Below are positions 26,113-46,122 of a DNA stretch of 55,749 nucleotides, piece after piece (the first letter of the stretch is position 1; the number at the start of each line of letters is the position of its first letter). Location of the stretch: assembly GCA_945921515.1 (NCBI GenBank), contig CAMEKR010000002.1, positions 1-55,749 of the forward strand, written 5' to 3'. The stretch is from an uncultured Clostridia bacterium (lineage in GTDB: Bacteria; Bacillota; Clostridia; Oscillospirales; Ruminococcaceae). Below the pieces are notes generated by a model, which saw only the letters and a list, made by a program, of their open reading frames with translations, was not told where the DNA came from and did no database searches. The position numbers and the translations under genes are program-made.

Positions 26113-26136
26113 AAACCCCGACAAAAGTCGGGGTTT
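26113..26136. terminator. Left hairpin flanking repeat element A
   Basis: Stem AAACCCCGAC/GTCGGGGTTT with an AAAA loop. The repeat element starts at the next base. Its stem is nearly the same as that of the hairpin on the other side of the element (26310-26335), but the loop differs. Confidence 0.75.
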
Positions 26137-26306
26137 CAGCTTGTCGAAAAAGTCTATATTTTAATTAATAGGTTAAGTTCTATAACCCCATCCCCAAACC
26201 CCTTCCCCTCGGGAAGGGGCTGTTTTTCGGGGGCTGCCGCCCCTGCGACCTTGCTTGGGGCTTCGCCCCAAACCCCATTTTTATAAAATAATAGGTTTAT
26301 CGACAG
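26137..26306. mobile_element. Short non-autonomous repeat element A (MITE-like)
   Basis: About 170 bp bounded by CAGCTTGTCGAAAAAGT on the left and GGTTTATCGACAG on the right. The ends are imperfect inverted repeats (TGTCGAAAAA against TGTCGATAAA). The same two end sequences bound element B at 45861-46096, although the interiors differ. Here the interior holds GC-rich hairpins, such as CCCCTTCCC-ctc-GGGAAGGGG and TGGGGC-ttc-GCCCCA. No ORF is carried. It is embedded between two copies of a terminator-like hairpin downstream of tsf. A non-autonomous element mobilised from elsewhere is the simplest reading. Confidence 0.72.
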
Positions 26307-26309
26307 TAT

Positions 26310-26335
26310 AAAACCCCGACTCTCGCCGGGGTTTT
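26310..26335 (-). terminator. Terminator of rpsB-tsf, right hairpin flanking element A
   Basis: Stem AAAACCCCG/CGGGGTTTT with an 8-nt loop, 18 bp after the tsf stop on the minus strand. Its T run is TTTTATA. It is the likely original terminator of the operon. Confidence 0.75.
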
Positions 26336-26353: not shown

Positions 26354-27274
26354 TTACTTAACCATCGAAGCAACTTCTGCAGCGAAGTCGTCTTCCTTCT
26401 TCTGAATACCTTCGCCCTTTTCGAAACGAACAAATTCAACAACCTTGATGTTCTTGCCAACAGAAGCGATGAACTTAGCAACTGTCATGTTAGGATCCTT
26501 AACATAGGGCTGGTCGAGTAAGCAGATCTCTTCTGCGAACTTTCTCATTCTGCCGTCAACGATCTTCTCAAGAACGTTCTGGGGCTTGGGCTTTGCCGAC
26601 TGCTCGTTTTCATTCTGAACGAGCTTGAGCTGTACTTCCTTCTCAGCTTCGATAACAGAAGCAGGAACATCTGCCTGTGCAACGAACTGAGGTGCGCTTG
26701 CTGTGATCTGGAGAAGCAGATCCTTAGCGCAAGCCTTTACAGCGTCGTCGTTTGCATCGTCAGCTTCGATCTTTATCATAGAGCCTATGATAGAGCCGCC
26801 GCCGTTGTGTGTGTAAGCGAACAGATCGCCTGTCATTCTCTTGAAACGACGGATCTGGATGTTCTCGCCGATTGTAGCGATTCTCTCTGTGAGGATATCG
26901 CCGATGTTCTCTGTCTGACCTGCGGGTACTACAGCCTTTAATGCCTCAACATCTGCAACATCATTATCAATGATTGTGTTTGCTACGAGCTCAACGAACT
27001 CGATGAATCTGTCTGTCTTAGCAGCGAAGTCGGTCTCAACATTGATCTCTACAACAACGCCGACCTTCTTAGCTTCATCAACCTTAGTATATACAAGACC
27101 CTCTGCAGCGATTCTGCCGGACTTCTTTGCAGCTTTTGCAAGGCCCTTTTCACGGAGGTTCTTGATTGCGGCGTCAACATCGCCGTTTGTCTCTTCAAGT
27201 GCTCTCTTGCAGTCCATCATACCGCAGTTTGTAAGTTCTTTTAACTGCTTTACTGCCTGTGCTGAAATAGCCAT
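26354..27274 (-). CDS. tsf: Translation elongation factor Ts
   Basis: EF-Ts regenerates EF-Tu-GTP by nucleotide exchange. The 306 residues begin with the UBA-like domain VKQLKELTNCGMMDCKRAL and have the EF-Tu-contact motif VVEINVETDFAAKTDRFIEF (about 73-92). The second core domain has LLLQITASAPQFV and KEVQLKLVQNE, and VVEFVRFEKGEGI lies near the C-terminus. Length is normal. It follows rpsB by 22 bp, the nearly universal rpsB-tsf order. Codon use is strongly biased, as expected for high expression. Confidence 0.97.
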   Translation of the reverse strand: MAISAQAVKQLKELTNCGMMDCKRALEETNGDVDAAIKNLREKGLAKAAKKSGRIAAEGLVYTKVDEAKKVGVVVEINVETDFAAKTDRFIEFVELVANTIIDNDVADVEALKAVVPAGQTENIGDILTERIATIGENIQIRRFKRMTGDLFAYTHNGGGSIIGSMIKIEADDANDDAVKACAKDLLLQITASAPQFVAQADVPASVIEAEKEVQLKLVQNENEQSAKPKPQNVLEKIVDGRMRKFAEEICLLDQPYVKDPNMTVAKFIASVGKNIKVVEFVRFEKGEGIQKKEDDFAAEVASMVK

Positions 27275-45830: not shown

Positions 45831-45861
45831 GAACGGCACGGTTGATTTTCCCGTGCCGTTC
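45831..45861. terminator. Left hairpin flanking repeat element B
   Basis: Stem GAACGGCACGG/CCGTGCCGTTC with a 9-nt loop, 14 bp after the DHHW stop. The stem sequence is repeated in the hairpin at 46101-46122 on the other side of the element; the loops differ (TTGATTTTC against GAAA). Confidence 0.8.
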
Positions 45862-46096
45862 AGCTTGTCGAAAAAGTATTTTTCGACAAGCTGTCAGACT
45901 GCGAGAAACACACGCAGACGAGGAAAGAGTCACCGTCGGCGTACAAAAGTACGGTAGGTGACTCTTGACAAAGTAAGCAAAAACACTTTCGGAGAGCCGA
46001 TTTGAGGCTCTCCGAAAATTTAACAATAATTTCCTTTTAGATAAATCCAACTACTTGCTAAAAATGTGTTTTTGCGGTGCGTGGGTTTATCGACAG
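45861..46096. mobile_element. Short non-autonomous repeat element B (MITE-like)
   Basis: About 236 bp with the same ends as element A: CAGCTTGTCGAAAAAGT on the left and GGTTTATCGACAG on the right. The interior is a chain of hairpins: CAGCTTGTCGAAAAA/TTTTTCGACAAGCTG (15 bp), AAGAGTCACC/GGTGACTCTT, and CGGAGAGCC/GGCTCTCCG. The small ORF here (45814-46050, minus) only traverses these stems and is not credible. It sits between two hairpins with the same stem, in the gap between convergent DHHW and clpB genes. Confidence 0.75.
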
Positions 46097-46100
46097 CCTG

Positions 46101-46122
46101 ACGGCACGGGAAACCGTGCCGT
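46101..46122 (+). terminator. Right hairpin flanking element B
   Basis: Stem ACGGCACGG/CCGTGCCGT with a GAAA tetraloop, followed by TTCTTCTTTAATC on the + strand. It looks like the original terminator end for the DHHW gene, now displaced by the element. Confidence 0.72.

Follow-up and report, generated by a model that had tools for sequence, protein, structure and literature searches.

How does a mobile element come to lie between two transcription terminator hairpins that share their stem and differ in their loop? This question is raised by element A, a short repeat at the terminator of tsf (elongation factor Ts) on contig CAMEKR010000002.1 (assembly GCA_945921515.1) of an uncultured Clostridia bacterium (Oscillospirales, Ruminococcaceae). 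The analysed stretch of 55,749 nucleotides is called the window below. A preliminary description of it had proposed insertion of the element at terminator hairpins, with the hairpins duplicated or re-formed. Very probably, the best explanation is mobilisation of the IS1182 type, in which a hairpin is chosen as the target and duplicated as a whole, with miniature inverted-repeat transposable elements (MITEs) as the mobilised units and terminators as the sites.

Hairpins at the ends of the elements

In the genome of the window, 48 copies could be read at both ends; 47 of them have hairpins on both sides, in 44 cases no more than 2 nt away from the element. The two hairpins matched each other in 46 of these 47 pairs. 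Since right ends were picked from pattern candidates partly by hairpin agreement, this count is slightly biased, but the strictness of the end filter keeps the bias within limits. In the sister species, the corresponding count of paired copies with hairpins was 16 of 18. Insertion at terminator hairpins and their duplication, as previously proposed, are thus borne out, and genomic copies do not generally lack flanking hairpins. A hairpin score of at least 20 on both sides was reached by 40 of the 48 paired copies, compared to a background of 1.0% at random window positions, rising to 2.8% in the zone 30-120 nt beyond the stops of long open reading frames (ORFs). At the weaker threshold of 14, the background amounts to 13-15%, so that it is the matching of the two hairpins and not their mere presence that weighs most. 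Taking the own genome, the genus and the order together, 38 of 94 pairs are exact repeats of 17-34 nt, whose length is mostly within 2 nt of that of the hairpin and whose hairpin sequence is different at every locus. The insertions are mostly located 30-80 nt from the 3′ end of a gene, and the outer sides of the hairpins contain on average 4.8 T per 8 nt versus 2-3 in the element ends. Unrelated hairpins at the two ends were seen at loci L040, L150, L185, L186, L194, L198, L206, L231, L236 and L237. At another locus (L325, 2036-2064), a single hairpin has an element end on each side, back to back, as if the target were shared by two insertions.

Occupied and unoccupied sites

Two hairpins could also flank an element if tandem terminators pre-existed and the element landed in the space between, with no duplication involved. 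This alternative would accommodate the loops of element A, for which direct comparison shows 5 differences in 24 positions, and the copies elsewhere with unrelated hairpins on the two sides. It is refuted at the one locus at which the closest orthologous unoccupied site could be compared: in genome G014, two 26-nt hairpins of identical sequence (AAAGTCCGTTGCAACCAACGGACTTT) enclose the element, while in G031 the flanks meet at one 26-nt hairpin (AAAGTCCGTTGTAATCAACGGACTTT). The proS locus gives a similar picture, hairpin-element-hairpin in G014 versus one hairpin in G031, identical over 27 nt, with the left flank in G031 set apart by other DNA. Empty sites therefore do not already carry two hairpins. 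In the relatives without the element that were inspected, the tsf and pgsA terminators are generally single and of different sequence. As the exact repeats are moreover unlike from locus to locus, a tandem origin has very little probability. On contig C64 of the window's genome, the terminator occupied in G014 bears an element in the opposite orientation, from which it follows that the insertions at this terminator were probably independent. Replacement of the hairpin, with the target deleted and no duplication, was not found at the sites compared: the empty site has one hairpin, the occupied site two. At the level of sequence, these comparisons demonstrate that the target is a hairpin and the product two hairpins.

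Two other loci (L077 and L027) were rejected as empty sites since their flanks lie at separate places in relatives; the single terminators of different sequence found there have supporting value only. Likewise, the orthologous tsf terminators, though single in the relatives inspected, are too diverged to serve as the direct ancestor. At tsf, G035 has a plain single hairpin, and in G030 (L276) what looks like a decayed element end adjoins the tsf hairpin.

Nature and distribution of the elements

The elements are MITEs. They are short, occur in many copies and contain no transposase ORF between the left end and the right end or second hairpin; CAGnnTGTCGAnAAA is present at both ends, the hairpin is duplicated, and the ends are shared with autonomous IS1182 elements of other Oscillospirales genera and with decayed copies in the genus. 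A pattern search recovered 77 left ends with up to two mismatches in the window's genome, while a reversed control pattern with up to three mismatches gave one match in the whole genome. BLAST with element A revealed about 45 places in this genome. The copies that were read fall into size classes of about 174, 240 and 480 bp, and their ends are asymmetric (CAGnnTGTCGAAAAAGTC / CAGnnTGTCGAnAAACC). Elements at L043, L050, L054, L005 and L025 are broken at contig ends, apparently by an IS3-type insertion (...ACTGGACA / TGTCCAGT...).

To assess their breadth, one genome per species was searched for CAGCTTGTCGAAAAAGT, which yielded at least 110 stretches, mostly from Oscillospirales. Among the matches listed, the genera Ruminococcus, Oscillibacter, Flintibacter, Lawsonibacter, Intestinimonas, Flavonifractor and others are represented, and nearly all Oscillospirales left ends are directly preceded by a hairpin that reaches up to the boundary. 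By contrast, none of the nine chance matches listed from unrelated taxa (Proteobacteria, Amycolatopsis, Bacteroidales and others) has a hairpin. An autonomous copy with the exact left end was not present among the matches listed (110 loci).

Relationship to IS1182

Intact insertion sequences of the IS1182 family, about 1.5 kb in length, were detected in Oscillospirales; their ends match those of the MITEs and they sit between hairpins. At least partial matches to IS1182-family transposases occur in 86 of 295 genomes of the order. Four scanned transposases pass the NCBIfam IS1182 model NF033551 with 385-404 bits (cut-off 270) and also match DUF772 and DDE_Tnp_1_6. CAGnnTG-type ends directly beside a hairpin were found at 13 of 30 fetched IS1182 loci, and the hairpins match in six of the nine loci readable on both flanks, one of them with an inverted core. 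The MITEs and several IS1182 elements have the asymmetry of AAAGTC at the left and AAACC at the right end in common, and a fold-back at the left end is shared by several IS1182 elements and the second MITE of the window, element B. Decayed IS1182 copies with MITE-type ends are present in the same genus, though not in the genome of the window.

It is conceivable that the mover is instead an IS30-family transposase of the kind of IS1630 and that the likeness to IS1182 is coincidental. For IS1630, Calcutt 1999 (by its title, as cited in PMC7648426) reports inverted repeats as the target and their duplication, and IS1630 copies in Mycoplasma fermentans have flanking duplications of 16-26 bp (PMC3317919). 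However, IS1182 elements of the same order agree with the MITEs in their ends and in their hairpin flanks. Transposases with an rve domain (IS30/IS3 type) gave no match in the window's genome; the proteins of this kind in the sisters were IS3-like, IS21-like or fragmentary, and none had CAGnnTGTCGAAAAAGT ends. We therefore consider an IS30-type mover highly improbable. The IS1202 family, in which one group makes long target duplications, was rejected as well: its ends start with 5′-TGT and no terminator target has been described.

Several observations weigh against mobilisation by IS1182 with duplication of the hairpin. Searches with an IS1182 subgroup profile detected no IS1182 transposase in the other MITE-rich sisters, and the genome of the window itself, 98.9% complete and in 213 contigs, did not yield one either. 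Because of this, the link to IS1182 relies on the ends and on the behaviour in other genera, from which we infer the cognate enzyme of the MITEs. Moreover, the hairpins differ in three of the nine full-length IS1182 copies readable on both flanks, and unlike hairpins on the two sides occur in 8 of the 94 pairs, one of the eight being a spurious pair. The unlike pairs probably stem from recombination between element copies, a source that we assume.

Divergence and inversion of the loops

The stems around element A agree and the loops do not, and the earlier suggestion that loops diverge while the stem is kept was confirmed on a larger set: in 86 pairs, 7.4% of the loop positions differ versus 1.9% of the stem positions, meaning that loops change about four times faster (Fisher p = 5e-7, an optimistic value since positions are not independent). 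Among 83 pairs informative for orientation, the second hairpin is direct in 74, inverted in seven and ambiguous in two. The inverted class includes both elements of the window, A being the weaker case with five of 24 positions differing in direct comparison and three when compared to the reverse complement of the left loop. In another MITE copy (L202), the second hairpin is the exact reverse complement of the first, and a full-length IS1182 copy outside the 83 pairs (L240) has an exactly inverted core. Since loops diverge faster than stems and some pairs are inverted, the mismatch of the loops is compatible with a target duplication.

Loop inversion may either reflect the mechanism itself or result from the palindrome arms having flipped later. 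One might go further and speculate, with some reservation as to its likelihood, that a DDE transposase reads structure and not sequence and restores its target in duplicate, the inverted loop being the footprint of a cruciform or hairpin-capped intermediate.

The body of element A is 100% identical over 170 bp to a copy on contig C54, and the window copy is changed only in its right hairpin and its final 4 nt, where TCTG has become TATA. This distribution points to one local rewriting event rather than slow drift. That the hairpins in general belong to the element and were rewritten after insertion to match, e.g. by gene conversion, is the least credible alternative, since, despite compensatory or palindrome-correcting changes in some pairs (L080 alters both sides of a stem pair) and a terminal change in element A that lengthens its right stem, hairpin sequences vary from locus to locus against a conserved element body, and a relative has the same hairpin without the element. 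Correction between hairpins may occur later, but it cannot be their origin.

Possible course of the insertion

Hairpin targeting, duplication of the whole hairpin, ends shared with IS1182 and empty sites with a single hairpin are all evident from the sequences compared. In the mechanism that we propose, the transposase would pick DNA by its capacity to form a hairpin or cruciform and not by its sequence, and the usual target of this kind in these genomes would be intrinsic transcription terminators. Strand transfer may take place at the 5′ feet of an extruded cruciform, a step drawn as a hypothetical pathway in PMC5678879, and the MITEs would be mobilised in trans by an IS1182 transposase. The original T-rich tail would stay with the outer hairpin, at which transcription of the neighbouring gene probably still ends. 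The T-rich flank outside this hairpin agrees with the view that preserved termination makes the insertion harmless, and the two-hairpin outcome probably lets the element spread without damage to genes. Terminators offer many target sites where an insertion should be of little cost to the host, and this would account for the dozens of MITE copies per genome and the spread through Oscillospirales.

Comparison with known systems

IS1272 and TnSha1, members of the IS1182 family in staphylococci, target hairpins, often transcription terminators, without a sequence consensus; a single terminator (repA) is described as having been hit independently several times, in either orientation, and for IS1272 the hairpin is reported to be deleted or replaced without target duplication (PMC4923244, PMC5678879). 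Hairpin duplication figures in PMC5678879 as a purely hypothetical alternative (Fig. 13 pathway b). The elements studied here thus resemble IS1272 in transposase family and in hairpin and terminator targeting, but keep two copies of the hairpin where IS1272 loses it. According to the empty-site comparison, one IS1182 group duplicates the terminator hairpins that IS1272 deletes, so that structure-directed transposition can have different results in members of a single family. Palindromic targets have been reported for some IS1182 members (PMC5678879 and PMC4923244, citing Siguier 2015), which is a further likeness, while a detailed description of hairpin duplication was not found for the family in the papers searched. 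IS1630 shares the duplication of an inverted repeat, as far as the cited title tells, but belongs to another transposase family, is not a MITE and resides in an unrelated host. With bacterial MITEs in general, as portrayed in the passages found of PMC10969869, the elements have in common that they are short, non-coding, intergenic and of high copy number with terminal inverted repeats; these passages mention neither IS1182-derived MITEs nor duplication of terminator hairpins. No literature on hairpin-duplicating IS1182 elements or on these MITEs was found in a search confined to open-access papers, so that prior notice is possible; within this scope, an IS1182 group duplicating hairpins, with order-wide MITEs, is new. 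The many natural insertions provide ready material for studying how a transposase recognises a hairpin.

Features of the window

The arrangement of element A between two hairpins, as given in the preliminary description, was confirmed, whereas the length of the element has to be revised from about 170 to 174 bp, because intact copies elsewhere, whose right end reads ...TATCGACAGTCTG (also written TCGACAGTCTG), show 4 nt more at this end. The right hairpin of element A is located 20 nt from the 3′ end of tsf.

Table 1. Positions of elements A and B, their flanking hairpins and tsf in the window
Feature	Position	Strand	Remarks
Left hairpin of element A, AAACCCCGACAAAAGTCGGGGTTT	26113-26136	no strand	24 nt, AAACCCCGAC-AAAA-GTCGGGGTTT; one of the two target copies
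Element A	26137-26310	+	174-bp non-coding MITE
Left terminal inverted repeat of element A	26137-26153	+	CAGCTTGTCGAAAAAGT
Right terminal inverted repeat of element A	26294-26310	-	reads TATACTGTCGATAAACC, consensus CAGACTGTCGATAAACC
Right hairpin of element A, AAACCCCGACTCTCGCCGGGGTTT	26311-26334	no strand	24 nt, AAACCCCGAC-TCTC-GCCGGGGTTT; beside the tsf 3′ end
tsf (elongation factor Ts)	26354-27274	-	terminator is the insertion site of element A
Left hairpin of element B	45832-45860	no strand	
Element B	45861-46100	+	240-bp MITE, same ends as A; left end a 33-bp fold-back, CAGCTTGTCGAAAAAGTATTTTTCGACAAGCTG
Right hairpin of element B	46101-46122	no strand	

Element B, which the preliminary description did not contain, occupies together with its two hairpins (45832-46122) a 3′-to-3′ gene junction. 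Its right hairpin is the exact reverse complement of the left hairpin minus five loop bases. A hybrid of both elements was seen at L011 (1501-1883), where the fold-back left end of B is occupied by A and the flanking hairpins match.
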